Shown: positions 19,810-46,891 of the stretch, in pieces
How positions within the stretch are numbered: the stretch's first letter is position 1
How the letters are laid out: every line of letters starts with the position of its first letter
Assembly: GCA_030645235.1 (NCBI GenBank)
Contig: JAUSMV010000008.1
Span: 186,001-250,000 of the forward strand
Length of the DNA stretch: 64,000 nt
Direction of reading: 5' to 3'
Source: Parvibaculum sp.
GTDB taxonomy: Bacteria > Pseudomonadota > Alphaproteobacteria > Parvibaculales > Parvibaculaceae
Made by a program: the position numbers and the translations under genes
The notes under the pieces: model-generated
Seen by the model: the letters and a program-made list of their open reading frames with translations, nothing else
What the model was told of the DNA's origin: nothing
Databases searched by the model: none

Positions 19810-19853
19810 TCAGGAAAATAAGGCTCGAAAGCAACGTGCGCAGTTCGCAATTC

Positions 19854-19904: not shown

Positions 19905-19906
19905 CC

Positions 19907-20152: not shown

Positions 20153-20173
20153 GGGAGCCTCCTGAGCCGCCTT

Positions 20174-20192
20174 AATTGCGAATGATTATCAT
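20174..20192. promoter_or_regulatory. Possible Fur-type box
   Basis: TTGCGAATGATTATCATTT lies about 22 nt upstream of the DUF2061 start. It contains AATGATTATCATT, close to the central part of the classical Fur consensus (GATAATGATTATCATTATC). In alphaproteobacteria Fur homologues often act as Mur or iron-repressor variants, so the bound protein is uncertain. Confidence 0.5.
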
Positions 20193-20303
20193 TTAAAGGT
20201 GGTGAGGGGGAATGTCAAGGGGCGGGTATTGGAGAATTTTGGGAGCTTATTTCTTCTCCTCCCCCTTGAGGAGGCTTAGATCATTACACGGATTAAATTC
20301 TTG

Positions 20304-20452
20304 AACCCTCCCCTTGAGGGAGGGTCAAACGGCGCCTTCGCCGTTTGGGGCGGGGTCGCGGTCCATCGTCTGGTTTTGAATTTGCGGTGACCTTCGTTCC
20401 CCCGCCCCAAAAATCAAAGATGATTTTTTGACCCTCCCTCAAGGGGAGGGTT
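20304..20452. repeat. 150-bp MITE-like repeat, copy A
   Basis: 149-bp element bounded by a perfect 26-bp terminal inverted repeat beginning AACCCTCCCCTTGAGGGAGG. Inside is a second inverted pair (TTGGGGCGGGG against CCCCGCCCCAA). Copy B lies at 22784-22933 with about nine substitutions and one single-base indel. It has no coding capacity. It is downstream of leftward map, and may fold into a long RNA hairpin. A shorter related stub (CTCCCCCTTGAGGAGG) is at 20249-20264. Confidence 0.9.
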
Positions 20453-20477
20453 AAAAGAAATCACACCATCATCAGTA

Positions 20478-21236
20478 TCACGCCATCGTCAGAATGACCG
20501 GACCACTCTTCGTCACAACGAGGCTGTGTTCATATTGAACCGTCGGGGCGGCGGGGTCAGCGATCAGGGTCCAGCCGTCATCTGTTTCATCGGCATAAGT
20601 TGCGCCCAGCGACAGGAACGGCTCGATAGTGAAGACGAGACCGTCATGCATGCGGCGGCGCTCGGAGCGGTCGCGCCAGGTGGCGATGGAGTCAGGCTCT
20701 TCATGCAATGAACGCCCGACACCGTGGCTCGCGAGATTGCGGATCAGCGTGTAGCCGCCCTTGTCGGCAAAGCGCTCGATGCGTTCGCCGATATCAGCAA
20801 GGCGCGCATCGCTGCGCACGGCGCCGATGCCTTCCCACATGGCGCGTTTGCCATCGCGGCAGAGCCTGGTGATATGCGGCCGCACCGGCGGCACGGCAAA
20901 GCTCGCGCCCGTGTCGCCATAGAAACCACCAAGCTCGGCTGACACATCAATATTGACGAGATCGCCCGCCTTGATGACGCGGGCGCCCGGAACACCATGC
21001 GCCACTTCACAACCCGACGCATTGCCGACGCTGATACAGGTGGCGCCCGGAAAATTGTAATCAAGCTCCGGCGCCGAGCGCGCGCCATGGGCCTCAAGGC
21101 CCTTTCGGCCAATGGCATCAAGCTCAAGCGTTGTCATGCCAGGCTCCAACGCCTTGCCCATATCGCGCAGCACGGTCGCCACGATCCTGCCGATGCGGCG
21201 CAGCGCCTCAAGCTCGTCCTGCGATGTAATGGTCAT
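20478..21236 (-). CDS. map: Methionine aminopeptidase, type I
   Basis: Removes the initiator methionine from nascent proteins; cytoplasmic dinuclear metal enzyme. All ligands are in place: Asp97 and Asp108 in NIDVSAELGGFYGDT, His171 in ASHGVG, Glu205 in FTIEPF, Glu236 in QYEHSLVV; His80 (VAHGVPG) fills the substrate position. 252 aa. ATG at 21236 (MTITSQDELEALRRIG) gives the family N-terminus. The N-terminal SH3-binding cysteine extension of some types is absent. It may be a second, non-essential map paralogue; the rest of the genome is needed to say. Confidence 0.94.
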   Translation of the reverse strand: MTITSQDELEALRRIGRIVATVLRDMGKALEPGMTTLELDAIGRKGLEAHGARSAPELDYNFPGATCISVGNASGCEVAHGVPGARVIKAGDLVNIDVSAELGGFYGDTGASFAVPPVRPHITRLCRDGKRAMWEGIGAVRSDARLADIGERIERFADKGGYTLIRNLASHGVGRSLHEEPDSIATWRDRSERRRMHDGLVFTIEPFLSLGATYADETDDGWTLIADPAAPTVQYEHSLVVTKSGPVILTMA

Positions 21237-21475
21237 GTCCCGGCACCCTTTATCAATCCCGCGCAAACCGGCGCGGCTGCACGAATTTTGCGCATTCTAT
21301 GCAGGAATTGCCTGCCCATGCGACAGACGGCAAATGACAGAATGTCCGGCAGTATAATGATCACTTTGACCGGCGCTGACACCCTTGCCTTCAAACCAAA
21401 AGCAATCAACACTGATCATGCGCATTGCAATATGCGCATTTGGGATGACCCAGTAACACGCCTTTGGAGGCGACG

Positions 21476-22618
21476 GTGAGCATGGCCCTACAGGAACAAA
21501 GCAAGTCCGCCTATTCTGCGCCCATTTCTGATACTGCCGCGCCGATCATCGAAATCAGGAACGTCTCGAAAATCTATCAGGGCGGCGTCAAAGCCGTTGA
21601 TGATGCAAATATCACCGTGAAGCGCGGCGAATTTTTTGCCCTCCTCGGCCCGTCCGGTTGCGGCAAGACAACATTGCTGCGGATGCTGGCGGGCTTTGAG
21701 ACGCCGACAACGGGCGAGGTCATTATCGACGGTCACAATATGGCGACCGTTGAACCCAATAAGCGCCCCGTCAATATGGTGTTCCAGTCCTATGCGGTCT
21801 TCCCGCATATGTCGGTCGAAAAAAACGTCGCTTACGGCTTGCGGATGGACGGGCGACCGTCCGCTGAAATCAAACAGCGCACCGCCGAAGCGCTTGAGCT
21901 TGTGAAGCTCGGCGGGTTTGGCAAACGCATGCCGCATGAAATGTCGGGCGGCCAGCGCCAGCGCGTCGCGCTCGCCCGCGCGCTTGTGAAACGCCCCTCT
22001 GTGTTGCTGCTTGATGAACCGCTGTCAGCGCTTGACGCCAAACTGCGCGAGGCGATGCAATTGGAACTCGTGCGCCTGCAACAATCGGTCGGCATCACCT
22101 TTGTCATCGTGACGCATGACCAGACCGAAGCTTTGTCAATGGCCAACCGCATCGCCGTGATGAATGCGGGGACGGTCCGCCAGATCGCGGCACCGGCGCA
22201 GCTTTATGAAAACCCTTCAAGCCGGTTCGTTGCTGACTTTATCGGCCGCATCAATCTGATGGATGCCAAAGCCGTGCGCGTCGGCGAGCATCGCGTTAAA
22301 GTGACGGTGCCGGGATTTGGTGAAGTCGAACTTGCGGGCGATGCGGTGGGCGATGTGGCGCTTGCGGTGCGGCCTGAAAAGATTTTCGTCGCCGAAAGCA
22401 AGCCGACGGACCCCGATGTGATTGCCGTGCGCGGCAAGGTCGGCGAAGTCGCCTATTACGGGTCTTATTCAAACGTCTATTTCGACATCGGCGCGGGCGC
22501 ACCGATCCTTGCCGACATCGGCAATGTGTCGCGCGACATTGAAGAGTTTACCTTCAAGCGCGGCGAGGACTATTGGATCTACTGGCGCAAGGGCGACACG
22601 CTGGTGCTGGGGGCTTGA
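21476..22618 (+). CDS. ABC transporter ATPase, spermidine/putrescine (PotA) type
   Basis: ATP-binding subunit of an importer of the polyamine/iron/sugar (CUT-like) class. Walker A GPSGCGKTT, Q-loop FQSYAVFPHM, signature [15 protein letters not shown], Walker B LLLDEPLSALD and switch His in VTHDQTEA are all intact; a TOBE domain fills the last 120 residues. GGAGG at 21466-21470 points to the GTG at 21476 (or ATG 21482). No permease or binding protein is next to it: upstream is divergent map, downstream repeats and a convergent regulator. It is an orphan ATPase serving subunits elsewhere, or the remnant of an operon. Confidence 0.9.
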   Translation: MSMALQEQSKSAYSAPISDTAAPIIEIRNVSKIYQGGVKAVDDANITVKRGEFFALLGPSGCGKTTLLRMLAGFETPTTGEVIIDGHNMATVEPNKRPVNMVFQSYAVFPHMSVEKNVAYGLRMDGRPSAEIKQRTAEALELVKLGGFGKRMPHEMSGGQRQRVALARALVKRPSVLLLDEPLSALDAKLREAMQLELVRLQQSVGITFVIVTHDQTEALSMANRIAVMNAGTVRQIAAPAQLYENPSSRFVADFIGRINLMDAKAVRVGEHRVKVTVPGFGEVELAGDAVGDVALAVRPEKIFVAESKPTDPDVIAVRGKVGEVAYYGSYSNVYFDIGAGAPILADIGNVSRDIEEFTFKRGEDYWIYWRKGDTLVLGA

Positions 22619-22645
22619 GGGCTTTCTTTATTCAAAAAAAATGAT

Positions 22646-22749
22646 CGTCATGCGCGGGCTTGACCCGCGTATCCACGTCTTATTTTGTTGGTGCAATAAA
22701 GGCGTGGATGGCCGGCCTCCTTTATTTAAAGGTGGGTCCGGCCATGACG
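22646..22749. repeat. Nested palindromic intergenic repeat (alphaproteobacterial type)
   Basis: Outer arms CGTCATG and CATGACG, next arms ATCCACG and CGTGGAT, plus inner hairpins (GCGGGCTTGACCCGC; GGCCGGCCT...GGTCCGGCC). The order CGTCATGCGCGGGCTTGACC...ATCCAC...GGCCATGACGG is the widespread intergenic repeat seen in many Rhizobiales genomes. It is right after the orphan ATPase and beside copy B of the 150-bp element. Confidence 0.75.
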
Positions 22750-22783
22750 GATGTGGTGATGGGGGTTTGATCTGATTTCCTTC

Positions 22784-22933
22784 AACCCTCCCCTTGAGGG
22801 AGGGTCAAACGGCGTCTTCGCCGTTTGGGGCGGGGTCGCGGTCTCTCATCTAGTTCTGAATTTGCTGTGGCCTTCGTTCCCCCGCCCCAAAAAATCAAAG
22901 ATAATTTTTTGACCCTCCCTCAAGGGGAGGGTT
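22784..22933. repeat. 150-bp MITE-like repeat, copy B
   Basis: 150-bp copy of the element at 20304-20452 in the same orientation, with the same perfect 26-bp terminal inverted repeat and inner G/C-rich inverted pair. Located between the convergent ATPase and MerR-family genes, so the two copies lie outside the two ends of the map-ATPase pair, 2.3 kb apart. Confidence 0.9.
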
Positions 22934-22959
22934 GAAGTAAGGAATGGGAGAGGGCTTTA

Positions 22960-23694
22960 TCACTCCTCACCATCTTCCAGTGTGCCCGTTGCGGTGACGC
23001 GTTCAACCTCGTGGATGATGCGTTCGACGAACATGTGCTGCATCATTTCATTGATGATATTGACGCCCTCCGCCGCCATGTTGGCGGCTTGTTCATAGTC
23101 AACGCGGGTGCCGAGGTTGCGGTAAAACTGCGCGACCGCGTGATGGGCCAGCACCTGCATCATCTCGGCATAGATGCCGTAAATATCAACCGTATAGCTC
23201 GCCTCAGGTGTGTAACCTGCGACACGCGCCTTGCCGATCAGTTCCAGCAGCCGCGCGTTGCGCTGATTGAGGAACTCGCCCCCCTCTTTCCGCTCGATCA
23301 TCAACACGCCGGATGCCTCAAGCACACGGGCCTCCTCAAGGCTGATCGGGACATCGGCAAGAACTTCAGCAAGGGGCCGCGCGCCGAAGGCGCGGCCTTC
23401 TGACAGCAATGGCCCCAGGCGGTTTTCAAGACCGATGAAAGCTTCAAAGCCGGTGACGGGATTTTCCGCTTCGCTCATCACCAATGATTTGATGAGGCTC
23501 AAAGGCAGATGACGCTCGGCCTGCAACCGCTTGATGAGATTGAGCCGTTTGACATGCGCGTCGGTATAGACCGCGACATTGCGCTTGGGCCGCTCGGGCT
23601 CGGGCAGCAGACCTTCGCGGATATAGTAGCGGATCGTTTCGCGACCGAGGCCCGACACGTGTTCCAGTTCTTTCATCTTCATCGCTTTACTCAT
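22960..23694 (-). CDS. MerR-family transcriptional regulator
   Basis: About 244 aa. N-terminal winged HTH of the MerR type (MKELEHVSGLGRETIRYYIREGLLPEPERPKRNVAVYTDAHVKRLNLIKRLQ). The rest is a long helical C-terminal domain of unknown ligand, bigger than in metal-sensing MerR proteins and with no cysteine cluster, so an organic effector is more likely. The start is MSKAMKMKE at 23694 (frame open to 23709). It is upstream of nothing on its own strand except the repeats; the thiolase gene that precedes it ends in a terminator, so the two are separate units. Confidence 0.85.
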   Translation of the reverse strand: MSKAMKMKELEHVSGLGRETIRYYIREGLLPEPERPKRNVAVYTDAHVKRLNLIKRLQAERHLPLSLIKSLVMSEAENPVTGFEAFIGLENRLGPLLSEGRAFGARPLAEVLADVPISLEEARVLEASGVLMIERKEGGEFLNQRNARLLELIGKARVAGYTPEASYTVDIYGIYAEMMQVLAHHAVAQFYRNLGTRVDYEQAANMAAEGVNIINEMMQHMFVERIIHEVERVTATGTLEDGEE

Positions 23695-23744
23695 ATGCCT
23701 ATGAAGCAATTTTGAAACGCGTCCGTCAACGCCGACGCGACAAA

Positions 23745-23776
23745 GAAAAAAGCGGCCCCCTTGCGAGGGCCGCTCT
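23745..23776 (-). terminator. Rho-independent terminator of the thiolase gene
   Basis: Stem AGCGGCCC with GGGCCGCT around CCTTGCGA; reading leftward it is followed by a T-rich run (TTTTTTCTTTG). It is 50 nt after the thiolase stop. Confidence 0.85.
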
Positions 23777-23826
23777 GATTTGATCGTGTGAGGAAGAGCT
23801 TGATGCTCTCTCTTTTTGATTATCTC

Positions 23827-24999
23827 TTAGAGACGCTCGATAATCGTGACGTTGGCCAGACCGCCGCCTTCGCACATGGTCTGGAGACCATAACGCTTGT
23901 TGCGGGTCTTGAGCGCATGGATCAGCGTCGTCATCAGCTTTGTGCCCGAAGCGCCGAGCGGATGGCCGAGCGAGATCGCGCCGCCATTGACGTTGAGACG
24001 GGCCGGATCGGCATTGAGCTTCTGCAACCAGGCCACGGGCACGGAGGCGAAGGCTTCGTTGACTTCATAAAGGTCGATATCTTCGATCTTCATGCCGGCT
24101 TTCTTCAAAGCCTTTTCAGTGCCGGGGATCGGGGCTTCCAGCATGATGACCGGATCGCCGCCCACCACTGTCATGTGATGCACGCGGGCGAGCGGCTCAA
24201 CACCGAGCTGCTTCAGACCCTTTTCATTAACGACCATAACGCCTGAGGCACCGTCGCAGATCTGCGAGGACGACGCGGCGGTGATGGCACCACCTTCGAC
24301 AAGCAGCTTCACGCCTTTGATCGAATCGAGATTGGCATCGAAACGAATGCCTTCGTCGATCGTGTGCAGCTCCTTGGTGCCATCGGCCGTGGTGATTTCA
24401 AGTGCGAGAATTTCGTTCTTGAAAGCGCCGGACTGTGTGGCGGCAATCGCGTTCTGGTGGCTCATATAAGCGAACTGGTCGAGCTGGTCTTTCGTCAGAC
24501 CGTATTTTTTGGCGATCATTTCAGCGCCGGCGAACTGGCTGAACTGAATGTTGGGATAACGCTCTTCAATGTTCGGGCTTTTGTAGATACCGAAGCCGTT
24601 TTTGAACGGCAGCGAGATCGGCATGCCCATGGGCACGCGTGTCATGCTTTCGATACCGGCAGCAACAACGATGTCCATCGCGCCTGACATCACAGCCTGA
24701 GCGGCAAAGTGGAGCGCCTGCTGGGAGGAACCGCACTGACGGTCAACCGATGTAGCGGGCACGCTTTCCGGGAGCTTCGAGGCCAGCACCGCATTGCGCG
24801 CGATGTTCATGCCCTGCTCACCGGCCTGATCGACGCAACCGACGATCACGTCTTCGATCAGCGCGGGGTCGATCTTGGTGCTGTCAACCAGCGCGTTGAT
24901 CACCTTGCCGCCGAGATCTGCGGGGTGCCAGTCTTTCAGACGACCGCCTTTGCGGCCACCGGCGGTGCGGGTTGCGGCGACGATATAAGCTTCGGCCAT
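23827..24999 (-). CDS. Acetyl-CoA C-acyltransferase (thiolase)
   Basis: 390-aa thiolase, reversible cleavage of 3-oxoacyl-CoA. Nucleophile Cys in DRQCGSSQQAL, NEAFASVPVAW, GGAISLGHPLGASGTK with the catalytic His, and CEGGGLANVTIIERL with the second Cys. It differs clearly from phbA (DRQCGSS rather than LCGSG; VPVAW), and belongs to the group used in fatty acid or steroid side-chain degradation rather than PHB synthesis. ATG at 24999 has AGGAGAG upstream. Single-gene unit with its own terminator. Confidence 0.92.
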   Translation of the reverse strand: MAEAYIVAATRTAGGRKGGRLKDWHPADLGGKVINALVDSTKIDPALIEDVIVGCVDQAGEQGMNIARNAVLASKLPESVPATSVDRQCGSSQQALHFAAQAVMSGAMDIVVAAGIESMTRVPMGMPISLPFKNGFGIYKSPNIEERYPNIQFSQFAGAEMIAKKYGLTKDQLDQFAYMSHQNAIAATQSGAFKNEILALEITTADGTKELHTIDEGIRFDANLDSIKGVKLLVEGGAITAASSSQICDGASGVMVVNEKGLKQLGVEPLARVHHMTVVGGDPVIMLEAPIPGTEKALKKAGMKIEDIDLYEVNEAFASVPVAWLQKLNADPARLNVNGGAISLGHPLGASGTKLMTTLIHALKTRNKRYGLQTMCEGGGLANVTIIERL

Positions 25000-25517
25000 G
25001 AGGCTCTCCTGTGATGAACGTGGGCCACGCCAAAGGGCGCGGACCTACGGGATCGGTTCGAAATTCGAATTGGTCGCCATCTTGAGCATGGGGCCGCACT
25101 TGTCCAGTCCCAAAAAGGCCAAAATACGGGGCGTTTTGGACAGGGGGTCTGACTTATATCGGGAGCGGCCCGCGCAAAACCAGATCGCGCAAAACCTCCT
25201 GCAAATTTGACGTAGGGAGAACTTGGGGCGTGGCAGGAAAAATACGGGGACCGGCGGACGGGACCATTTCATTTTTTGAGAGAGGCTTTGCTTAGGTGAA
25301 CAGGCCAAAGAGGGGCTTTCGCGGCCAGGTTCCGGAATATGCGCGCGACGACGCACCCGCACAGCCTCACATCAGGATCATTATCCGTAGTGAACCGTAT
25401 AGACCTGGGCCATTATAGATGAAACCAATGAACACCTAATATGTTCCAATTCAACAGCGTGATAATGTGCCCTCCCGCACCCGAGACGGGAACGGCGATG
25501 AGGGACAGGAGGACCGG
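25000..25517. other. Gene-free region
   Basis: About 518 bp between the thiolase start and the next small gene. I see no credible coding frame, RNA gene or repeat. It must hold the thiolase promoter near its left end. Short low-complexity runs such as TTCGAAATTCGAATT (25058-25072, an inverted repeat) are the only structure noticed. Confidence 0.6.
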
Positions 25518-25874
25518 ATGGCCTGCTGCGCATTTATCATACTTCTGCTCGGACAATTCGCGTTTGCGCTGAAGCGGGTCCGAACCTTTGTCTGTGGCGA
25601 GCGTACCGAGTGCGGGATCGCCCCCCATCCCGCTGTTTCATGGTCGCCCGCCTTGACGGCGGCGGCGTTGCCGATGCCCCCCACTGACCCCCAGTGGCCC
25701 AACCGGCTACGCCGCTTGCTCTCGCCCGACGTCATTGTGCTCGCTGTTTCCGTTGAACTGCTGATGGGCGCAAGCGCGCTCACCTTCTTTGCGGGACAAG
25801 CGGGCTATTCACCGGGAGAATTTGCCAGAGCCCTCGCCGCAATCTGCACCAGCGGGCATTTCACGTCGTTCTGA
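25518..25874 (+). CDS. Small hypothetical protein with hydrophobic ends
   Basis: 118 aa, unrecognised. The ATG at 25518 has a very good ribosome site (AGGAGGA, 4-5 nt away), which is the main support. It begins with a hydrophobic helix (CAFIILLLGQFAFAL), has Cys residues (FVCGERTECG), then a Pro-rich middle and a second hydrophobic segment (VIVLAVSVELLMGASALTFFAG). It could be a small membrane protein. It is convergent with cysA, 37 nt away. Opposite frames of similar length exist, so confidence is moderate. Confidence 0.5.
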   Translation: MACCAFIILLLGQFAFALKRVRTFVCGERTECGIAPHPAVSWSPALTAAALPMPPTDPQWPNRLRRLLSPDVIVLAVSVELLMGASALTFFAGQAGYSPGEFARALAAICTSGHFTSF

Positions 25875-25911
25875 ACACCTAAGTGCGGCGGCATCGTGCG
25901 GCCTGCTGAAT

Positions 25912-36729: not shown

Positions 36730-37830
36730 ATGTTGAAGTCACGGGCGCTTGGTGTGGTCTTTGTTGCGGGTCTCGCCCTTTGGGGCTGCGGAGAGGCAAA
36801 CGAAAAGACCAAGGCGGCGGAAACCACACCCGCAACGCCGGTGCTCGCCGCCACGGTCCGCGAAGCCCCCTCAGCCCGCGATGTCAGCGCCTATGGCGTC
36901 GTGCGCACCGACAAGGAAGGCAAGCTCGCCTTCAAGATCGGCGGCTTCCTGAAAGACCTCAAAGTGGACATGGGCGACCATGTGAAAAAGGGACAGGTGC
37001 TCGCCCGTCTCGATCAACGCGAAATTGATGCACAGGCCGCGCGTGCCTCAGCCGCCGCCGCCAAGGCCAAACGCGACCTTGCCCGTATCGAACCCTTGTT
37101 GAAAAACGGCTATGTCAGCCAGCAAAAAGTGGACGACGCCAAAAGCGCACTCGCGATTGCGAATGCTGACCTTGCGAGCATCACCTTTAACCGCAAGCTC
37201 GCAACCATCGTGGCGCCCTCAGACGGCGTGATCCTCGCCCGTCATGTGGACCAGAACGAAATCGTAGCGGCAGGCACGCCGATCCTTACCGTGAGCCAGG
37301 GTGAGGCAGAGCTCATTCTCAAAGCCTCGTTGTCAGATCGCGATGTGGCGGCACTTGCTGTCGGCGACAAGGCGGAAGTGACGCTTGATGCCTTCCGCAA
37401 CATCAAAATCGACGCCCATGTGCGCCGCATCTCGGCGATGTCTGATGAGCGTACCGGTACGTTTGACGTTGAAGTCGTGCTCGACAATGCGCCCAAGGGC
37501 ACCGAGAGCGGCTTTATCGGCATGGCGCGCATCCGCGCGGGTGCGGATAAGTCAGCCGGTGCTATGGCGCTTGCTATCCCTGCTTCCGCCATTCTCGAAG
37601 GTCATGGCGCAACCGCCACAGTCTACGTCATAGACAAGACATCCATGACCGTGAAGCTCACACGCGTGGGTGTCGCGGGCGTTGAGGGCGACGATGTTCT
37701 GATCTCATCAGGCCTTAAAACAGGCGATGAAGTGGTGAGCGCCGGTGCACCCTATCTGCGCGAAGGCAGCCCCGTGAAGATCGTCACGGATCTGGCCGCT
37801 GAAACAACGGCAGCGGAGCCGCGCACATGA
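36730..37830 (+). CDS. RND efflux adaptor (membrane fusion lipoprotein)
   Basis: 366 aa periplasmic adaptor linking the RND permease to an outer-membrane channel. Lipoprotein signal with lipobox LWGC (Cys near residue 20). Barrel-sandwich/lipoyl halves (FLKDLKVDMGDHVKKGQVLARLD and IVAPSDGVILARHVDQNEIV) flank a helical hairpin; beta-barrel and membrane-proximal domains follow. ATG 36730 has GGGGG 7 nt upstream. The stop overlaps the permease start by four bases. No outer-membrane factor gene follows, so a TolC-type partner must be elsewhere. Confidence 0.93.
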   Translation: MLKSRALGVVFVAGLALWGCGEANEKTKAAETTPATPVLAATVREAPSARDVSAYGVVRTDKEGKLAFKIGGFLKDLKVDMGDHVKKGQVLARLDQREIDAQAARASAAAAKAKRDLARIEPLLKNGYVSQQKVDDAKSALAIANADLASITFNRKLATIVAPSDGVILARHVDQNEIVAAGTPILTVSQGEAELILKASLSDRDVAALAVGDKAEVTLDAFRNIKIDAHVRRISAMSDERTGTFDVEVVLDNAPKGTESGFIGMARIRAGADKSAGAMALAIPASAILEGHGATATVYVIDKTSMTVKLTRVGVAGVEGDDVLISSGLKTGDEVVSAGAPYLREGSPVKIVTDLAAETTAAEPRT

Positions 37831-40800
37831 ACCTCGGCAGCATCAGCGGCTTCTTCGTCCGCCATTGGCAGTTCACGCTCGTCCTTTTCGGCCTTCTCGC
37901 CATGATGGGCTATAACAGCTTCCAGACCATTCCGCGCGCGGAAGACCCTGACTTCCCGATCCCCTTCACGCTTATCACCGTTGTCATGCCGGGTGCCGAT
38001 CCCGCCGACATGGAAAAGCTCGTCATCCGCCCCATTGAGGACGCGGTAAACGGACTTGATGATCTGGAAAACATTTCAAGCCATGCCGAAGACGGCGTCG
38101 CCTCGATCTCGATCCAGTTCTCATGGTCGATCCCTGATCCTGACAAATCCTATGACGATGTGGTGCGCGAAGTGAACGCGCTGCGCTCAAGTCTGCCTGA
38201 AGGTATTCAGGTTTTGCAGGTCTCCAAGTTTCGCTCATCACTGACCAATGCCATTCAGGTGGCGCTGGTGAGCGAGACCATGTCAGCGCGTGAGCTGGAA
38301 GACATGGCGAAAGACCTGCGCGATGATATTGACCGCGCACCCGGCGTGCGCGACACAAAATTCTGGGGTCTGCCACCATCTGAAGTCCGCGTGGCCCTCG
38401 ACTTCGGTCGGCTCGCCGCCATGAAAATTCCCGTGACCGCTATTGCCAACGCCATCGGCGCAGAGAGCAAAGACGTGCCCGGCGGGCCCATTCATTCAGG
38501 CGAGCGCCGCTTCAATATTAAAACGACCGGCGGCTATGAAAGCCTGCGGGAAATCGAAGACACGGTTGTCGGCTCATTTGATAACCGCACCGTGCGCATT
38601 TCTGATGTCGCCACCGTCTCCTGGGCGCAGGAAGAAGCAGCACATCTGGCCTGGTTCAATGGCAAGCGGGCGGTATTCGTGACCGCGAACCTCAAAGAAA
38701 ACCAGAACGTCTTTGATGTGCGCAACGGCGTCTATCACGTGCTTGACGATTTTGAGGCGCGCATGCCCGCTGACGCCAAACTCGAACGCGGCTTTGATCA
38801 ATCGATTGCTGTCGCCTTCCGCCTCAATCACCTCTATCGCGACTTTGCGATTGCACTTGGTCTCGTCATCATCACATTGCTGCCGCTCGGACCACGCGCC
38901 TCACTCGTTGTCATGGTGTCGATCCCTCTATCGCTCGCCATTGGTCTGTCGGCGATGCAGTTCATGGGCTTCACGCTGAACCAGCTTTCCATCACAGGCT
39001 TCGTGATCGCGCTGGGACTGCTGGTGGATGACAGTATCGTGGTCGTCGAGAACATTGAGCGACATATCCGCGAAGGCAAAGGACGTCTTGAAGCGGCGAT
39101 TGCCGCAACCTCGCAAATTTCGGTCGCCGTTGTCGGCTGCACGGCGGCTTTGTTATTTGCCTTCCTACCACTCCTCAATCTGCCGGAAGGGGCGGGCAAG
39201 TTTACCCGCTCGCTACCTGTCGCCGTCACCGTCACCATCGTCGCCTCGCTCTTTGTATCGCTGACGATCATTCCCTTTCTCTCAAGCGTTCTCCTCTCAG
39301 CCAAGACGCATCCCGAAGGCAATATCGTGCTGCGCGTCGTGATGAAGGGCATTCATACGTTCTACCGCCCGCTCCTTCACCGCGCGCTCGCCTTTCCCAA
39401 AACCTTTGTGATTGTGTCGCTGGCCGTTTGCTTTGCCAGCCTGTCACTTATTCCCGTCATCGGCTTCAGCCTGATGCCTCCCGCTGACAGTCGCCAGTTC
39501 CTCGTACAGATTGCAACGCCCGACGGCTCCAGCATGGCCGACACGGAAAAAGCACTGCGCTATGTCGAGAAGGTTTTACGCAAGCATGATGAAATCGGCT
39601 TCATCATGTCCAATCTCGGCCATGCCAATCCACAGATTTACTACAATGTCCGCAATGATGCGACGCGGGCCAATATGGCTGAAGTGTTCACCGAGACGAA
39701 ATCCTACGACGGCGTCGAAACACCAAAGCTCTATGACGCGCTGCGCGAGGACTTTAAGAAATATCCCGGCGCACAAATCATTATCCGCACCTTCCTCAAC
39801 GGCCCGCCCGTTGAAGCACCGATTGCGGTGCGTATTGTCGGACCTGACCTCAATGTGCTGAAAGATATTTCGCGCCGCGTAACGCGCCTCATCGAAGACA
39901 CAGAAGGCGTCATCGACGTGACAAACCCGATGCGGCTTGACCGCGTTGACCTCAATCTCGGCATCAATACGGAAAAGGCAGCGATGATCGGCGTCGCACC
40001 CGGCGTTATCGACCGTATTGTGCGGCTTGCCATCGTGGGTGAGCCCGCAGGTATTTATCGCGAGGATACGGGCGAGCAATTTGACATCACCGTGCGGCTC
40101 CCCATCGACGCGCATCATTCACTCAATGCGCTGAAAGACATTCACGTACCTACATCAACCGGCAGCTCGGTGCCGCTCGGACTTTTCACCGACCCGCATT
40201 TTGAATCCGGCCCGGCCCGCATTGACCGCTATAACCGCGAACGTCAAGTGACGATCACGGCCTATGGCAAGACGGGCTATAATGTCGGTAAGATCACGAA
40301 TGAGATTTTCACCAAGCTGGAAAAACTCGCCGTCCCGCCGGGCTATCATTTCAGCAGAGGCGGTGAAGCCGAAGCCGTACAGAAAAGCTTTGCCGGTCTC
40401 ACAAGCGCGATCCTCGTTGCGATCTTCGGCATCCTTGCCGTATTGATCCTTGAGTTTCGTTCGTTCCGCGCCACACTCGTCGTCGCAGGTGTCATTCCGC
40501 TCGGCCTTTTCGGCGGCGTCACAGCACTCTATATCTCCGGCTATTCATTATCGTTTACCGCCGTCATCGGCTTTGTGGCGCTGATCGGCATCGAGATCAA
40601 AAACTCGATCCTGCTGGTGGACTTCACCAACCAGTTGCGCCGTTCGGGCGTCAACCTGCATGACGCAATTGAGCAGGCGGGTGAAATCCGCTTCCTGCCT
40701 GTGCTGCTGACGTCGGCCACAGCCATCGGCGGGCTGCTGCCACTAGCGATCTCCGGCTCGGGACTTTATTCGCCTCTCTCATGGGTCATCATCGGCGGGC

Positions 40801-40919
40801 TGCTGTCATCGACGTTCCTGTCGCGCCTCGTGACACCGGCCATGTATCTCCTCCTCGCGCCGACCAATCTTGAGGATGACGAAGTGGGGCATGGCATCGT
40901 GGCCGTGCCTGCCGACTAA
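37827..40919 (+). CDS. RND efflux permease (HAE-1/AcrB-like)
   Basis: 1030 aa, inner-membrane proton-driven exporter. Twelve membrane helices in two halves with two large periplasmic loops. The proton relay is intact: GLLVDDSIVVVENIERH in helix 4 (paired Asp) and the Lys in EIKNSILLVDFTNQLR in helix 10. Second-half NxG-type turn PLGLFGGVTALYISGYS also fits. Substrate is unknown; AcrB-type pumps handle amphipathic drugs and solvents. Partner of the upstream adaptor. Confidence 0.95.
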   Translation: MNLGSISGFFVRHWQFTLVLFGLLAMMGYNSFQTIPRAEDPDFPIPFTLITVVMPGADPADMEKLVIRPIEDAVNGLDDLENISSHAEDGVASISIQFSWSIPDPDKSYDDVVREVNALRSSLPEGIQVLQVSKFRSSLTNAIQVALVSETMSARELEDMAKDLRDDIDRAPGVRDTKFWGLPPSEVRVALDFGRLAAMKIPVTAIANAIGAESKDVPGGPIHSGERRFNIKTTGGYESLREIEDTVVGSFDNRTVRISDVATVSWAQEEAAHLAWFNGKRAVFVTANLKENQNVFDVRNGVYHVLDDFEARMPADAKLERGFDQSIAVAFRLNHLYRDFAIALGLVIITLLPLGPRASLVVMVSIPLSLAIGLSAMQFMGFTLNQLSITGFVIALGLLVDDSIVVVENIERHIREGKGRLEAAIAATSQISVAVVGCTAALLFAFLPLLNLPEGAGKFTRSLPVAVTVTIVASLFVSLTIIPFLSSVLLSAKTHPEGNIVLRVVMKGIHTFYRPLLHRALAFPKTFVIVSLAVCFASLSLIPVIGFSLMPPADSRQFLVQIATPDGSSMADTEKALRYVEKVLRKHDEIGFIMSNLGHANPQIYYNVRNDATRANMAEVFTETKSYDGVETPKLYDALREDFKKYPGAQIIIRTFLNGPPVEAPIAVRIVGPDLNVLKDISRRVTRLIEDTEGVIDVTNPMRLDRVDLNLGINTEKAAMIGVAPGVIDRIVRLAIVGEPAGIYREDTGEQFDITVRLPIDAHHSLNALKDIHVPTSTGSSVPLGLFTDPHFESGPARIDRYNRERQVTITAYGKTGYNVGKITNEIFTKLEKLAVPPGYHFSRGGEAEAVQKSFAGLTSAILVAIFGILAVLILEFRSFRATLVVAGVIPLGLFGGVTALYISGYSLSFTAVIGFVALIGIEIKNSILLVDFTNQLRRSGVNLHDAIEQAGEIRFLPVLLTSATAIGGLLPLAISGSGLYSPLSWVIIGGLLSSTFLSRLVTPAMYLLLAPTNLEDDEVGHGIVAVPAD

Positions 40920-41014: not shown

Positions 41015-42061
41015 CTAAAAGTAACGCCGCCAGCGCAGTGCGACAGAGACAAGCGCAATAAGGACGGGGACTTCGACAAGAGGGCCGATGACGGTGGCGA
41101 AGGCGACGGGCGAGCCTATGCCGAACGCGGCAATGGCAACTGCAATAGCGAGTTCAAAATTGTTGCTCGCCGCTGTGAAGGACAAAGACACCGTGCGCTG
41201 ATAATCCGCACCGATGAACTTACCCATCGCAAAGCTCACGGCAAACATAATGAGGAAATAGAGCGCCAACGGCAGCGCAATGCGGAGCGCATCAAAGGGA
41301 AGCGCGAGCACTGTGTCACCCTTGAGAACAAACATCACAGCGATGGTGAACAAAAGAGCTACAAGCGTCAGCGACGCAATGCGGGGCAAAAATTCATTGT
41401 CATAGCGCGAAGCACCAAGACGCGGACGCAGGAAACGTCGTGTGACATAGCCTGCGGCGAAAGGCAGACCAAGATAGAGTGCAACGGCACCAGCAATGGT
41501 CCAGAAACTCACCGCGATGATCTGACCTTCAAGCCCGACAAGCGGCGGCAGGATGCTGAGAAAGAACCACGCATAGAGGCTGAAAAATAAAAGCTGAAAG
41601 ACACTGTTAAAGGCGACGAGGGCTGCCACATATTCGGCGCTGCCGCGCGCAAGCTGATTCCAGACAATGACCATGGCAATGCAACGCGCCAGACCAATGA
41701 GAATGAGGCCCGTCATATAAGCCGGTTCGTCTCGCAAAAAGATATAGGCGAGCGCAAACATAAGGACGGGGCCGATAAGCCAGTTCTGAATAAGCGAGAG
41801 AGCCAGCACTGTGCGGTCTTCGAAAATGCGCGGCAATTCTTCGTAACGCACACGGGCAAGCGGCGGATACATCATCAGAACGAGACCAAGCGCTATCGGG
41901 ATATTGGTCGTGCCGAACGTCATGGCATCGAGCGCGCCCGCAGCTTGCGGCACGAGAACGCCGATCAATGTGCCAAGCGCCATGGCCGCGAAAATCCAAC
42001 CCGTGAGATAGCGATCGAGAAAACCGAGGCGTTCAGGCTTTACCGGTGTGACATCACCCAT
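41015..42061 (-). CDS. acr3: Arsenite efflux carrier, ACR3 family
   Basis: Ten-helix membrane antiporter that expels arsenite. 348 aa. Seen: [14 protein letters not shown], the functional Cys in [16 protein letters not shown], and [21 protein letters not shown] near the C-terminus, all typical of Acr3 (also called ArsB in annotations). Last gene of the ars operon; its start overlaps the arsC stop by one base. Confidence 0.95.
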
Positions 42062-42549
42062 TATTCGGCACCGGTCAGCGACTGAATACCCGTTTTAAGT
42101 TTGTCGGATGGCAGGTTTGTCAGGAGATCAATGCGGCGGCGGATTTGCATGAAGACTTCAACAAATTTACGCCGTGTCTCTTCCGGCGATCCGACAAAAG
42201 CGGCCGGGTCTTCAAAGGGCCAATGCGCCGATGCGGGATGGCCCGGCCAAATAGGACACACCTCGCCCGCCGCGTTGTCACAAACAGTAATGATAAAATC
42301 CATCCTGGGTGCATCAAGGGCCGCGAACTCATCCCATGATTTCGAGCGCAAACCATCGACCGGAAAACCCGCTAACGACAGAACATCAATGGCATGGGGA
42401 TTAACGCGACCATTGGGATGACTGCCAGCGCTGAAGGCACGAAAGCGACCCTGCCCACTTGCATTCAGATAGGTTTCGGCCAAAACACTGCGGGCGGAGT
42501 TGCCGGTGCAGAGAAAGAGCACATTATAGATTTTCGCAGTATCGCTCAT
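42061..42549 (-). CDS. arsC: Arsenate reductase, thioredoxin-coupled type
   Basis: 162 aa, low-molecular-weight phosphatase fold that reduces arsenate to arsenite. Catalytic loop CTGNSARS with Cys14; resolving cysteines Cys90 and Cys98 in [24 protein letters not shown] carries the general-acid Asp. The cysteine triad marks the thioredoxin-dependent class. Its ATG overlaps the stop of the dioxygenase gene by four bases, so translation is coupled. Confidence 0.96.
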
Positions 42550-43574
42550 GTGAGCTTCTCCATCCGCAAGGTTGCCGCAACAGGATTTTCAACGCGTTCA
42601 ATACCTTTGCGTAATTTCTCATCTCCCGCCGAGAAAGCCGGATCAACAAGCCAGAGGCGCAGCAAATGGCGCTTCATATCCGGCTCATCAAAATCTTCAT
42701 ATTCCGAACGCTTGTGAAAAACGGATGCGTTTTTCAGAAACTGAATATCACCAGGTTCGAAATGCATATCGAGATAGAATCGCGGATCATTAGCGGTCGC
42801 CTCCAAAAAGGAAAGCACATCCTGCTGAGCCGCCGTAAGACGCGGCGCATCGGCGTGCTGCTGACTCTCACGGATATACCACGGAATGTAAAACGTGCGC
42901 AGGCGGTCATCTGTGAACTGACAGATATTCAGAGGGAACCAACCGCGTTCACCCGGTCGTTGCTGGCCTTGGGTATCAAACGGGAAGGCCTCAAACATTG
43001 TCGACAGAAGATCAGGTCGCGCCCGCGCCATTTCATTGAACAGAGAGACCGAGCTTACAATCCGGCTCACACCACCCGACTTCGCCTGGCGCAAACACAA
43101 CAACCCGATAATGTCGGCGCCGTCGGTGTGAAAGTCCTGCTCGGCCCGTGTTTTATAAAGACGCACACCATATTTTTTCGGGTCGGCACCTGTATCACGT
43201 ACATGGCCCAAGAGATCGCCATCCGTATTTTGCGAAATGGCCCGCCCCATATAAAGGCCCATACCCCAATAGACAAAGGCACTGGCCTCCTTACCCAACT
43301 CCATAACAGGAAGCCCACGCACCAACACAAAGCCGCGTCCGCGATCAAGCTCGCGGCTCCATCGGGCGATGCGGGCACTGAGAGCAGGAAGCGGGAAATC
43401 ATCCCGCGTCCAGTCTTTCATGTCTTTGCCTGTTGCCCGCGCGTGGACGACAGCCGCACGCAGTTCAGCAATATCAGAGCTCGTAAGACGCTCTATCCAC
43501 GAAACATCGGATTGAAGCATTTCACCAACCCATGCATCCGGCGTTGTGATGGGTGTCACAGGGATCATCATCAA
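42546..43574 (-). CDS. Fe(II)/2-oxoglutarate dioxygenase (TauD/TfdA family) in ars operon
   Basis: 342 aa. Iron facial triad visible as His149 and Asp151 (DFHTDGAD) and His287 (ASVFHKRSEYEDF), with Arg306 (KRHLLRLW) for the 2-oxoglutarate carboxylate, so it should be an active oxygenase. The family oxidises sulfonates, phenoxyacids, amino acids or quaternary amines. Here it is locked between arsI (3-nt gap) and arsC (4-nt overlap), far tighter than chance. It is not one of the named ars functions I know. Possible roles: oxidative cleavage of a C-As bond in an organoarsenical that ArsI does not accept, or breakdown of an arsenosugar/arsenobetaine-like compound. Substrate unproven. Confidence 0.88.
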   Translation of the reverse strand: MMMIPVTPITTPDAWVGEMLQSDVSWIERLTSSDIAELRAAVVHARATGKDMKDWTRDDFPLPALSARIARWSRELDRGRGFVLVRGLPVMELGKEASAFVYWGMGLYMGRAISQNTDGDLLGHVRDTGADPKKYGVRLYKTRAEQDFHTDGADIIGLLCLRQAKSGGVSRIVSSVSLFNEMARARPDLLSTMFEAFPFDTQGQQRPGERGWFPLNICQFTDDRLRTFYIPWYIRESQQHADAPRLTAAQQDVLSFLEATANDPRFYLDMHFEPGDIQFLKNASVFHKRSEYEDFDEPDMKRHLLRLWLVDPAFSAGDEKLRKGIERVENPVAATLRMEKLT

Positions 43575-43577
43575 CCT

Positions 43578-44069
43578 TTAAGCGCAGCAACCAGAAGCAC
43601 TGGCGATCTCTTCAATTTTCTTAGGCGCAGGTGTCGAACAGCCGCAGGCCGCCGCATCATCACTGCTCATGTCGAGCTTGTGGAGTTCCGGTCCGGTACC
43701 GAACTCATCCATCTGATGAAACGTATAGAAGGCTTCCCACCGCACGCCACTCGGGTCAGCGGTCCAGCTCTTTTCGGACTTCGCATAACAGCATGTGGTG
43801 ACGCCCTCAGGCAGATAGGGCGCTTCGGCTTGCTTCATGCGGTCAAAAATCTCGTGCAACTCGTCCTGCGCATCAACCTGAATACCGGCATGGGAAAAGC
43901 CGATATCACCTGACTGGCTTTCAACAACGAAATTAACGCGCGGATCATCGAGCATCCATTTGGCATAGCCCGGGCGCGTGACTGTGGGAGCCGTGCCGAA
44001 GAGCGTTGAATAGAAGGCGACGGACTTTTCAAGGTCAGCCGTACCGAAGCTCACATGCAATCTTTTCAT
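43578..44069 (-). CDS. arsI: ArsI-type C-As lyase (VOC dioxygenase)
   Basis: 163 aa, Fe(II)-dependent ring-cleavage-fold enzyme that splits the carbon-arsenic bond of trivalent organoarsenicals such as methylarsenite. Metal ligands fit His5 (RLHVSF), His60 (FSHAGI) and Glu112 (RWEAFY). The vicinal cysteine pair Cys93-Cys94 in VTTCCYAKSEKSW that binds the arsenical is present. A Cys-rich tail (ACGCS and SGCCA) extends beyond the core. The frame opens at 44129, but the ATG at 44069 gives the family start; it overlaps the arsR stop by one base. Relatives are also annotated CadI. Confidence 0.9.
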   Translation of the reverse strand: MKRLHVSFGTADLEKSVAFYSTLFGTAPTVTRPGYAKWMLDDPRVNFVVESQSGDIGFSHAGIQVDAQDELHEIFDRMKQAEAPYLPEGVTTCCYAKSEKSWTADPSGVRWEAFYTFHQMDEFGTGPELHKLDMSSDDAAACGCSTPAPKKIEEIASASGCCA

Positions 44070-44407
44070 TACGCACATTCCTTTTTTCTGACAACTTTGC
44101 CGACGGAGCCACAAGCGCCCTGACAGCAATCTTCGAGGAGGAAATCAGTAAGGCCGCGCATAATCGCGAGGTCGGCCTTGTAGATGATGGAACGGCCTTC
44201 GCGGCGCGAAGTCACAAGGCCCGCATGCGACATTTCTTTGAGGTGAAACGAGAGCGTTGCGGGCGGCACATCGAGCGCCTCGCCGATCTCACCGGCGGCA
44301 AGCCCGCCTTCACCCTCTTTGAGCGCATGGGCACGCACAAGAGCGCGAAAGATCGACAGACGCGTATCCTGTGCGAGAGCGGCGAGAGCCGTGATGGCGT
44401 TTTCCAT
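44069..44407 (-). CDS. arsR: ArsR-family arsenic-responsive repressor
   Basis: Winged-HTH repressor (about 112 aa): LAQDTRLSIFRALV, recognition region VPPATLSFHLKEMSHAGLVTSRREGRSIIYKAD. C-terminal metal-binding cysteines in EDCCQGACGS (Cys96, 97 and 101 of the longest frame) plus a last one in KKECA; this arrangement differs from the classical ELCVCDL helix-3 site, so As(III) is bound by the C-terminal type of site. First gene of the operon. Start is ATG 44407 or 44413; the palindrome at 44413-44434 touches it. Confidence 0.95.
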   Translation of the reverse strand: MENAITALAALAQDTRLSIFRALVRAHALKEGEGGLAAGEIGEALDVPPATLSFHLKEMSHAGLVTSRREGRSIIYKADLAIMRGLTDFLLEDCCQGACGSVGKVVRKKECA

Positions 44408-44412
44408 TTTCA

Positions 44413-44434
44413 TATTTCCATATATATGGAAATA
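44413..44434. promoter_or_regulatory. ArsR operator, perfect 22-bp palindrome
   Basis: A perfect palindrome with arms TATTTCCATA and TATGGAAATA joined by TA. It covers the region directly upstream of, and touching, the arsR start codon, so bound repressor would block initiation or early elongation. It also contains the GGAAA ribosome-site-like sequence. Confidence 0.8.
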
Positions 44435-44466
44435 TAGAAAAGAGTCAAGAGGGAGGCGGAAATAAC

Positions 44467-44530: not shown

Positions 44531-46891
44531 TTAGTGAGAACGATGGATCGCGCGGGCCTCATCTTCGGTAAGCGGCTTGCGCTTAAGCGGCCAGATCGTT
44601 TCAAAGATCGCAACAAGCGCAGGCAGGAGTGTCACCGCACCGATCATGTTCACGACAAACATAAAGGTCAGCAGCAGCCCCATGTCAGCCTGGAACTTCA
44701 GCGCCGAGAACGACCATGTCGAAACGCCGATGGCAAGCGTACCGCCGGTGAACATGGTGGCCGAGCCAACGTCGTTCAACGCCTGGAGGTAAGCAGCATG
44801 CGGCGTGACGCCCATACGCATATAACGCTGAATACGGTTGTATTCGTAAATACCGTAGTCAACACCGATACCGACGGCGATGGCGAGCACGGGCAATGTC
44901 GAAATCTTGAGACCGATAGAAGCAGCCGTCAGGAACCAGTTGCCGATGATCGTGGACAGAATAAGCGGGATAACGCAACACAGAGCACCGCGCCATTCAC
45001 GATAGACGAAGATCACAAGCGTCATAACCACCGCATACACATAGAGCAGCATGGGCAGTTCTGAATGCTCAACAACCGTGTTGGTCGCTGAGGTGATCGT
45101 CACGCCGCCCGTACCGATGCGCGGCTTGAGATCATCACGCGGATGATCGGCAATCCACTTTTCGACAGCCGCTGTCACCGTCTTGACGGTTTCAGCTTTG
45201 GTGTCGGCCACATAGATCTGCACACCGAGTGTCAGGCAACGCTGGTCCACGAGAAGCGTCGAGCTGGAGACGCTTGATGTGGCCTGAGCAAGAGCGGTCG
45301 GGTCACGCGGCAGAGCGGCCCATTTCGGGTTGCCTTCCTGCCACATGGAGTTGATGACCTTGGCGACGATGGGCAGGCTCACAACCGTCTGCACACCGGG
45401 GACGTTCTTCATGTCCCAACCGAAGGTGTCGATGTAGTGGAGCTTGTCATAGTCGACGCAGATCACTTCCTGCTTCGGGCTTTCCACGATCACGTTCATC
45501 ACGTTGAGACCAAGGCGGAAATGCTCCGCGATGAACTCTGAGTCTGTGTTGTAACGCGCGGCGGGCCAAAGCTCACCAGCACCGGCATGAACGTCACCGA
45601 TCTGACGGTTGCGGCTTTCCCAGGCAGCAACGCCACCGAGTACGATGCAGAAACCAAGGAAGACGAAAGCAATCTTCGGCTTGGCGATCTGAGCGATGAA
45701 AGGCCAGTATTTCGCACGGCTTTCCATCGCGTGACGGACTTTCTCGCCATACTCGGCGCCCGGTGCCACATAGGACACGATGAGCGGCAGCATGATGAGG
45801 TTCGAGATGATCTTGAGCGCCACACCGATCGAAGCGGTGATGGCGAGTTCCTGGATCATGCCGATCGGAATGATGTAGAGCGTACCGAAACCTGCAAGAC
45901 AGGTGAGCAGCGCCACCGAACCCGGACGCAACAAGAAAGTGAAGGTCGCGCGTGCGGCCTGCTCTTTGTTGAGACCGGCGGCAATTTCGGCACCCGCCAT
46001 GTTGATCTGCTGCACACCATGGCTGACGCCGATGGCAAACACGAGGAAGGGCACGAGAACCGCGAGCGGATCAAGGCCATAACCCATGAGGCTCAGAATA
46101 CCGAACTGCCAGATGAGCGAGCAGAGCGAGCAGCTCACCGTCACCATCGTCAGAAGCCATGAGCGGCAATAGAGCCAAAGCATGAGGCAGGTAAGCACAA
46201 AGGCGAGAGCGAAGAAGAACACCACCGACTGCGCACCATCACGGATATCACCCATGAGCTTGGCGAAGCCGACGATCTTCACGTCCACATTGTCCGACAC
46301 ATATTTCTGGCGGATGTTCTTTTCGAGCAGGTCAGCCACTTTGAAGTAGTCGAGCCGTTCTTGCGTTTCCGGATCATATTCCAGAAGTTCCGTCGCGATC
46401 ATCGCCGACTTGAAGTCGGTGGACACGAGGCGGCCGACGAGATTGGCGCGCAGTGTGTTCTGCATGACCCGCTTGATGCTTTCAGCGTCCGGCCTGAAAT
46501 TGGCGGGAATAACGTCGCCGGCTTCCAGACCCTGTTCTGTCACTGCGATATAGCGTGTGTTCGCAGTCCATAGCGATGTCACGCGATGACGCGCGACGCC
46601 GGGAATGTAGAACACATCGTCAGTCGCTTCTTTGAGTTTCTGGAGAAATTCGGGCTGGAAAATATCGCCCTTCTTATTCTCCAGCACCACAATGATGCGG
46701 TTACCGCCGCCGAAGCCATCGGCATACTGGAAATAGGTCTGAATGAATGGGTTCCCGACCGGGAGCATTTTCAGAAAGCCGGCATCCATATGAAGGCCGG
46801 TGGCAAAATAGCCCAAGATGATGGTCATCAGACCAAGCACCGCCAGAATTGGGGCGCGAAGGCCGAAGACAATATTTTCGATACGCTGCAA
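44531..46891 (-). CDS. MMPL-type RND transporter
   Basis: 786 aa with two halves, each with one large periplasmic loop and about six helices (helices near 17-35, 220-340, 405-425, 610-770). Sequences VFAIGVSHGVQQINMAG and AIAVGIGVDYGIYEYNRIQ are the helix-4/helix-10 proton-relay motifs of the MMPL/SSD family. It belongs to the lone RND exporters for lipids, hopanoids or sterol-like molecules; substrate unknown. No adaptor is adjacent. It has its own terminator. Confidence 0.9.
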   Translation of the reverse strand: MQRIENIVFGLRAPILAVLGLMTIILGYFATGLHMDAGFLKMLPVGNPFIQTYFQYADGFGGGNRIIVVLENKKGDIFQPEFLQKLKEATDDVFYIPGVARHRVTSLWTANTRYIAVTEQGLEAGDVIPANFRPDAESIKRVMQNTLRANLVGRLVSTDFKSAMIATELLEYDPETQERLDYFKVADLLEKNIRQKYVSDNVDVKIVGFAKLMGDIRDGAQSVVFFFALAFVLTCLMLWLYCRSWLLTMVTVSCSLCSLIWQFGILSLMGYGLDPLAVLVPFLVFAIGVSHGVQQINMAGAEIAAGLNKEQAARATFTFLLRPGSVALLTCLAGFGTLYIIPIGMIQELAITASIGVALKIISNLIMLPLIVSYVAPGAEYGEKVRHAMESRAKYWPFIAQIAKPKIAFVFLGFCIVLGGVAAWESRNRQIGDVHAGAGELWPAARYNTDSEFIAEHFRLGLNVMNVIVESPKQEVICVDYDKLHYIDTFGWDMKNVPGVQTVVSLPIVAKVINSMWQEGNPKWAALPRDPTALAQATSSVSSSTLLVDQRCLTLGVQIYVADTKAETVKTVTAAVEKWIADHPRDDLKPRIGTGGVTITSATNTVVEHSELPMLLYVYAVVMTLVIFVYREWRGALCCVIPLILSTIIGNWFLTAASIGLKISTLPVLAIAVGIGVDYGIYEYNRIQRYMRMGVTPHAAYLQALNDVGSATMFTGGTLAIGVSTWSFSALKFQADMGLLLTFMFVVNMIGAVTLLPALVAIFETIWPLKRKPLTEDEARAIHRSH

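Follow-up and report, generated by a model that had tools for sequence, protein, structure and literature searches.

A TauD-type dioxygenase of bacterial arsenic operons as a probable, previously undescribed enzyme of organoarsenical handling

Introduction

A 64,000-nucleotide stretch of the Parvibaculum sp. contig JAUSMV010000008.1 (positions 186,001 to 250,000; here called the window) contains an arsenic operon in which a gene for a TauD/TfdA-family Fe(II)/2-oxoglutarate (2OG) dioxygenase, referred to here as tauD, lies between arsI and arsC. It is probably an enzyme, not described before, that deals with carbon-bound arsenic. Its subfamily is supported as a dedicated ars gene by its confinement to one clade whose members are linked to ars genes or carry an ArsR-type operator sequence, and its tie to methylated arsenic is supported by the C-As lyase ArsI, the methyl-adding enzyme ArsM and one TauD-ArsM fusion. 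A part in organoarsenical handling is well supported, because a core ars gene accompanies 30 of 48 clade members against none of 102 other homologues, the fusion exists, and an operator sequence precedes tauD in five of seven orphan members.

Soils, rice paddies and old herbicide sites commonly contain methylated and other organic arsenicals. The C-As lyase already known from bacteria, ArsI, is thought to act mainly on trivalent forms. If ars operons have a 2OG oxygenase of their own, it could account for the opening of pentavalent or unusual organoarsenicals. It also adds a testable gene to surveys of the arsenic cycle, the window protein having no NCBIfam match at an E value of 0.001. Among the matches listed from the open-access literature, as titles and starts of abstracts, no description of a TauD-type enzyme in ars operons was found; the available parts of PMC9144182, where the new determinant is folE, and of PMC6205960 mention neither a dioxygenase nor TauD.

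Results

A single compact operon on the minus strand, from window position 44413 to 41015, comprises arsR, arsI, tauD, arsC and acr3.

44069..44413, minus strand: arsR, ArsR/SmtB-family repressor of 114 amino acids (HTH_20, 2.3e-14; NF033788, 62.3 bits, cut-off 55)
43578..44069, minus strand: arsI, VOC-type C-As lyase (NF041414, ArsI/CadI, 119.5 bits, cut-off 116)
42546..43571, minus strand: tauD, TauD/TfdA-family Fe(II)/2OG dioxygenase (PF02668, 6.4e-33, 115.2 bits, cut-off 27)
42061..42549, minus strand: arsC, LMW-phosphatase/thioredoxin-type arsenate reductase (PF01451, LMWPc, 1e-15)
41015..42061, minus strand: acr3, arsenite efflux permease (TIGR00832, 404.8 bits, cut-off 282.8)
44408..44440, minus strand: predicted ArsR-type operator (sequence, half-site scan and a motif learned on arsR/arsI promoters)

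The original prediction had described five genes on one strand with junctions of -4 to +3 nucleotides (nt), and reading the open reading frames (ORFs) from the sequence bears this out: arsR/arsI and arsC/acr3 each overlap by 1 nt, tauD and arsC overlap by 4 nt (ATGA), and arsI is separated from tauD by 3 nt or more. For the dioxygenase, ATG 43571 or 43568 is a likelier start than TTG 43574; arsI starts at ATG 44069, with an upstream TTG at 44129 in the ORF list. The name arsC is less firm than the others, as the thioredoxin-type equivalog TIGR02691 scores 79.5 bits against a cut-off of 174.3. The window ArsI, the only one of the two oxygenases to match NF041414, keeps the vicinal Cys pair (TTCCY) when aligned with seven other ArsI proteins from clade loci. 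An imperfect inverted repeat at 44408-44440, with inverted half-sites GAAATATAGAA (44429, plus strand) and GAAATATGAAA (44408, minus strand), overlaps the arsR start codon.

Among 98 related genomes, the top three homologues outside the window genome (in G020, G028 and G036, of the same family) share 62-66% identity with the window protein. The order arsR-arsI-tauD-arsC is kept in all three, followed by acr3 in two and by an aquaporin (MIP) gene in G036, and the operon placement is therefore not due to chance. G020 belongs to the genus of the window genome; L002, the locus in G020, and L043 (Rhodobiaceae) are one and the same piece of DNA. No ars genes were found in the 1.5-kilobase (kb) flanks of the remaining homologues in these genomes (47% identity or less).

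A wider sample was assembled by scanning GTDB contigs with an alignment of four sequences. Its 150 rows are a choice rather than a census, comprising the window, the best 80 of 93 relatives from that scan, and stretches fetched from other searches: 32 of 44 places in one (12 omitted, at 178 bits or less), 24 of 43 in another (19 omitted, at 353 bits or less), and further places. Removal of identical proteins (L069, L207, L221, L222) had reduced 154 rows to 150. About 6 kb per side was examined, contigs permitting. Many contigs stop a short way from the gene, among them L047 (1,077 bases upstream), L063, L210 and L211, so that the absence of ars genes from short contigs is weak evidence. The ars scan used ArsI, ArsC, Acr3 and ArsM queries from the window and clade loci, so that very divergent ars genes outside the clade could escape it, and ArsB, ArsH, ArsP, ArsJ and ArsN lay outside the query set. 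The presence of arsR was judged by a tblastn scan, and genes were called with a simple codon model that missed or mis-started some of them.

A core ars gene (arsI, arsC, acr3 or arsM) lies within about 6 kb of 30 of the 150 distinct homologues, and arsR alone near three more. All 33 fall inside one 48-row clade (SH-aLRT 93) of the maximum-likelihood tree. The check set beforehand by the original prediction, that the subfamily should recur beside arsI/arsC in unrelated genomes, was thus passed, with hits for 30 of the 48 clade rows and for none of the 102 others (Fisher 2e-19, although the rows are not independent of one another); the query-based scan of the flanks found neither arsR nor a core ars gene near the 102 outside rows. 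The label 'ars' changes 9 times on the tree, compared with a mean of 27.9 when shuffled, and none of 500 shuffles was as low. A mixture-model tree of 91 rows, from which long or odd rows had been removed, divides 46 clade rows from 45 others with support of 91, a value not starred. L208 was represented in the first tree by just its C-terminal 420 residues, which take in roughly half of the TauD part, and does not appear in the second.

By family, the clade rows are accompanied by arsC (19 of 48), acr3 (13), arsM (11), arsI (10) and aquaporin (10), each 0/102 outside. The clade spans Alphaproteobacteria, Gammaproteobacteria, Acidobacteriota, Myxococcota and one Binatia genome. Membership of the Acidobacteriota rests on a single genome, since a search at E 1e-90 returned one of 247 genomes, which was already in the set; with a core ars gene, the Gammaproteobacteria are represented by Solimonas L068 (arsC 4.8 kb away), of which the dropped L069 is an identical copy, and the Binatia by L063. 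A scan of viral contigs found no relatives of the dioxygenase, and the 36 plasmid records with homologues are all under 60% identity. Altogether an arsenic link is seen in 40 of the 48 clade rows: a core ars gene in 30, arsR only in 3, an ArsO-like partner in 2 (L085, L149) and an operator in 5. Chance or a local oddity is ruled out by the recurrence across phyla together with the 0/102 control. An ordinary TauD paralogue parked in the operon is likewise ruled out, by the single clade, the signature residues and the operator.

Seven orphan members of alphaproteobacterial type have no ars gene in reach (L044, L045, L047, L055, L056, L058, L223). A half-site had earlier been drawn by eye after viewing both kinds of promoter; the clean version of the scan used a 16-position matrix obtained by Gibbs sampling and learned only from 11 arsR/arsI promoters of other loci. 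Run over whole loci, with 16,038-25,890 positions scored per orphan locus, it placed its top site directly upstream of tauD in five of the seven, with scores of 11.6-20.0, and L149 resembles these five (18.9). Among 34 out-of-clade control loci, 33 belonging either to the class of the window genome or to the same family as L044 and one (L232) from the L053 genome (Proteobacteria), the top site lay upstream in one (L147, 7.0), and the highest upstream score was 9.4. Judged by sequence, the dioxygenase gene thus appears to sit behind a predicted ArsR-type operator, as an ars operon gene does, both in the window and in most orphans. Two Phenylobacterium orphans (L045, L058) carry tauD and its ars-type operator inside what by eye resembles a molybdenum-cofactor gene cluster, at about 1-10 kb of the locus.

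Among 17 genomes selected for clade TauD, 14 have ArsI, 13 of them above cut-off. A further 199 genomes were drawn from the family of L044's genome (Phenylobacterium, presumably Caulobacteraceae); 10 carry clade TauD at E at most 1e-140, the weaker out-of-clade matches in G957 and G982 being set aside. In this draw ArsI is found in 6 of 10 genomes with clade TauD and in 35 of 189 without it (p 0.006). The five genomes in which no ars gene was seen beside tauD (L044, L047, L055, L058, L223) all carry ArsI elsewhere (p 3e-4), while ArsI is missing from four of the five whose tauD is ars-linked. ArsM was matched in 4 of 9 genomes tested, above cut-off in 2, and the window genome has no ArsM match at E 1e-20; the substrate of its dioxygenase is therefore probably taken up, not made.

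In L208, positions 6001-7830 form one 609-residue ORF containing TauD (residues 50-308) and ArsM (354-608; 298.2 bits, cut-off 263). The locus has no N, and its ArsM part keeps the cysteine motifs common to eight other ArsM proteins of the set; cysteines have functional roles in both ArsM and ArsI. As the fusion occurs in one of 48 rows and in one draft genome, an assembly slip is possible. L210 and L214 carry tauD and arsM as unfused neighbours.

Residues of the dioxygenase are counted here from TTG 43574. His149, Asp151, His287 and Arg306, which the original prediction had picked out, occur without exception in the aligned rows, 46 of the clade and 97 outside it, and the protein thus has the 2-His-1-carboxylate iron site and 2OG-binding arginine of the TauD/TfdA family; we take these four residues to fill the iron-ligand and 2OG-binding roles. 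Arg302, kept in 98-100% of aligned rows, is an equally good candidate for binding 2OG. The clade also has its own signature residues, among them Trp232, present in 46 of 46 clade rows and 0 of 97 outside. L208, L087 and five outside rows were excluded from these counts by a length limit; Glu145 falls within the search pattern of the GTDB contig scan, Trp232 and Lys281 outside it. The window dioxygenase is the sole match in its own genome at E 0.001.

The operon takes several forms. In Rhodobiaceae and their kin (window, L043, L052, L123) arsR-arsI-tauD-arsC is followed by acr3 or aquaporin. In Phenylobacterium and its kin (L046, L048-L051, L054, L091, L227) arsR-arsC is divergent from tauD, with an aquaporin gene in all loci except the truncated L054; in L048 genes for HlyD, OEP and MFS proteins come after, and the same gene clusters occur in five more loci. 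L224 reads arsR-arsI-aquaporin-arsC (glutaredoxin type)-DUF2306-like-tauD, and the Acidobacteria locus L059 reads arsI-tauD-small membrane protein-methionine-gamma-lyase-like-acr3-arsC. In Polyangium L060 the order is arsR-arsI-acr3-arsC-methyltransferase-tauD-phytochelatin synthase, the methyltransferase being ArsM-like, far below the NCBIfam cut-off and counted among the 11 arsM rows. Other Myxococcota and a 'Deltaproteobacteria' metagenome-assembled genome group tauD with arsM and an ECF sigma gene, and L062, L064 and L066 have acr3-arsC as well. Six loci drawn from the Minicystis phylum (L208-L210, L214-L216) have arsR-tauD, then arsM and/or arsI in four; acr3 or its start is divergent in four. 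In Solimonas L068 and Comamonadaceae L085 and L149 the end of tauD overlaps a gene for an ArsO-like flavoprotein. The best model for these proteins, NF040505, gives 265-276 bits, below its cut-off of 425, and they are perhaps a sister family of ArsO. A neighbour in L063 is ArsM-like, and for the part of its ORF that was scanned the best model is the arsinothricin methyltransferase (208.5 bits, below the cut-off of 500).

L068:6768-7859, L085:7043-8083, L149:6984-8015: ArsO-like flavin monooxygenase
L059:6987-7544, L062:4512-5084, L097:6753-7238, also in L064, L086, L118: small membrane protein
L062:3904-4482, also in L064, L066, L067, L071, L086, L087, L097, L118: ECF-type sigma factor gene

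The small membrane protein (160-190 amino acids) adjoins tauD in 6 of the 48 clade rows and in none of the 102 others; no Pfam match was found for the three scanned (L059, L062, L097). The ECF-type sigma factor gene, checked against Pfam in L062, occurs near clade tauD in 9 of 48 rows against 1 of 102 outside and is an unusual regulator for an arsenic operon. In Polyangium the phytochelatin synthase gene (L060:6996-7931; PF05023, 2.9e-88) is directly 3' of tauD within the arsenic operon, and in two genomes an ABM-family monooxygenase gene (L052:4734-5036, PF03992; L003:3392-3694) is divergent from arsR-arsI-tauD. In the window the arsenic operon is bracketed by genes for RND/AcrB-type and MMPL-type transporters (37827-40919, plus strand; 44531-46891, minus strand).

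Discussion

Our tentative preference, drawn by analogy, is for an ArsR-controlled TauD-family member that would work in organoarsenical metabolism by hydroxylating carbon bonded to pentavalent arsenic. Such an enzyme would bind an arsonate- or arsinate-type organoarsenical much as FrbJ and TauD bind phosphonates and sulfonates, and would use O2 and 2OG to add a hydroxyl group to the carbon that bears the arsenic. Alpha-hydroxyalkyl arsonates decay, and the alpha-hydroxy product would break down into an aldehyde, which would be formaldehyde where a methyl group had been oxidised, plus either arsenite or an arsenical with fewer methyl groups. On trivalent forms ArsI would perform the same job, ArsC would recover any arsenate, and arsenite would leave by Acr3, or by the aquaporin in several relatives; the window organism would obtain the substrate from its surroundings. 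Carbon hydroxylation is favoured because FrbJ and TauD act on tetrahedral-oxyanion compounds, because ArsI covers the trivalent forms and because the last gene of the operon serves to export arsenite; a phosphonate hydroxylase, one of the two nearest folds, points the same way. Somewhat more doubtfully, the reaction may amount to 2OG-dependent breaking of the C-As bond, in which pentavalent methyl- and other organoarsenicals would be attacked directly, with no prior reduction. The enzyme would then form a second, fold-unrelated arm of the demethylation cycle, present in several phyla and once fused to ArsM. The original prediction of a 2OG route for an organoarsenical stands as regards organoarsenical handling, to which linkage, fusion and operator point. 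A second route for a compound that ArsI cannot cleave would be one candidate among other chemistries on arsenicals, and arsenosugars and arsenobetaine, named there as examples, gained no specific support.

Several observations weigh against carbon hydroxylation. Genomic context does not discriminate between an enzyme that hydroxylates C-H bonds, one that oxidises As(III) and one that acts on a different molecule. A demethylase would be a strange partner for ArsM, fused or not, because methylation and demethylation would oppose each other, and an oxygenase fused to a methyl-adding enzyme remains a puzzle; arsM and arsI do coexist in Nostoc, according to the part of PMC5258700 available. Nostoc ArsI can demethylate both As(III) and As(V) derivatives, according to a review available in part (PMC6205960), so that a second enzyme is less needed. 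Eight of 48 clade rows are without any of the arsenic links tested (L055, L056, L087, L118, L122, L211, L212, L213), although an ArsR-family helix-turn-helix gene lies two genes upstream in L213 and ArsI is present at other places in the genomes of L055 and L212. The orphans L055 and L056 have no operator, and in both an upstream ORF overlaps tauD; in the 199-genome draw, 4 of 10 clade-TauD genomes are without ArsI. A protein thiol site for trivalent arsenic was also considered and rejected, as Cys160 and Cys218 are missing in some clade members; it was not used as evidence.

The ArsM coupling would be better suited by an oxygenase of trivalent arsenic, in which the ferryl oxygen would pass to the arsenic lone pair of the methylated trivalent forms MAs(III)/DMAs(III) and give a far less toxic pentavalent product, as a 2OG-dependent counterpart of ArsH. 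ArsM makes MAs(III), 11 of the 48 clade rows have arsM no more than about 6 kb away (that of L060 far below cut-off), and such a role explains the L208 fusion better than carbon hydroxylation does; the ArsO-like gene directly after tauD in three loci is also in keeping with it. This role nevertheless seems unlikely: the adjoining ArsI, thought to need a trivalent substrate, would compete, the window genome is without an ArsM match, conserved cysteines for As(III) were not found across the clade, and the nearest structural relatives are titled hydroxylases. The same ArsM neighbours and fusion, with the arsinothricin methyltransferase-like neighbour in L063, could mean instead that the enzyme helps to build an organoarsenical product and does not break one down. 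The sets of arsR, arsI, arsC and acr3 or aquaporin are, however, of resistance type, no other biosynthetic gene recurs among the clustered neighbours, and the window genome offers no ArsM match, so that biosynthesis is very improbable.

TauD-family enzymes accept many different substrates, and the dioxygenase might be an arsenic-stress accessory that is merely ArsR-regulated and acts on a thiol, a sulfonate or a damaged metabolite. The phytochelatin synthase gene after tauD in L060 and the methionine-gamma-lyase-like enzyme (below cut-off) in L059 hint at thiol metabolism. Each of these thiol genes is found in one locus, however, whereas ArsI and ArsM recur across phyla, a fusion to ArsM exists, and the five sampled genomes with unlinked tauD still carry ArsI; a non-arsenic substrate is accordingly also unlikely. 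By analogy with FrbJ, the enzyme might hydroxylate or split arsinothricin or another arsenical antibiotic and so confer resistance to an arsenical natural product. We regard this as rather improbable, the release of inorganic arsenic being a simpler explanation of the coupling to arsI, arsC and acr3.

Comparison with known enzymes

The dioxygenase differs in family from the oxidative enzymes already known from ars operons. ArsI, its partner in the window operon, is not known to use 2OG and belongs to the VOC/glyoxalase family, a different Pfam family from that of the window TauD protein. ArsH, an oxidative ars-operon enzyme, and ArsO are flavoproteins of other folds. ArsI is described as a non-heme Fe(II) enzyme that uses O2 to split C-As bonds in the part of PMC12607644 available, and the function of ArsO was not known in 2018, according to PMC6205960 in part.

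The nearest folds are those of FrbJ (PDB 5EQN), a confident fold match, and TtnM (PDB 7N7V), by its title a hydroxylase of the tautomycetin natural-product pathway. FrbJ modifies a phosphonate antibiotic, and both FrbJ and TauD hydroxylate carbons in compounds bearing tetrahedral oxyanion groups. Where the clade has Lys281, however, FrbJ has Asp in the alignment and TtnM has Asn, and the profiled neighbours of the window gene are arsR, arsI, arsC, acr3 and the two RND/MMPL transporters rather than a phosphonate cluster. TauD, TfdA and TmpA, enzymes for sulfonate, phenoxyacetate and phosphonate, respectively, have PF02668 in common with the window protein but are distant from it, TmpA being matched by profile at 0.0015.

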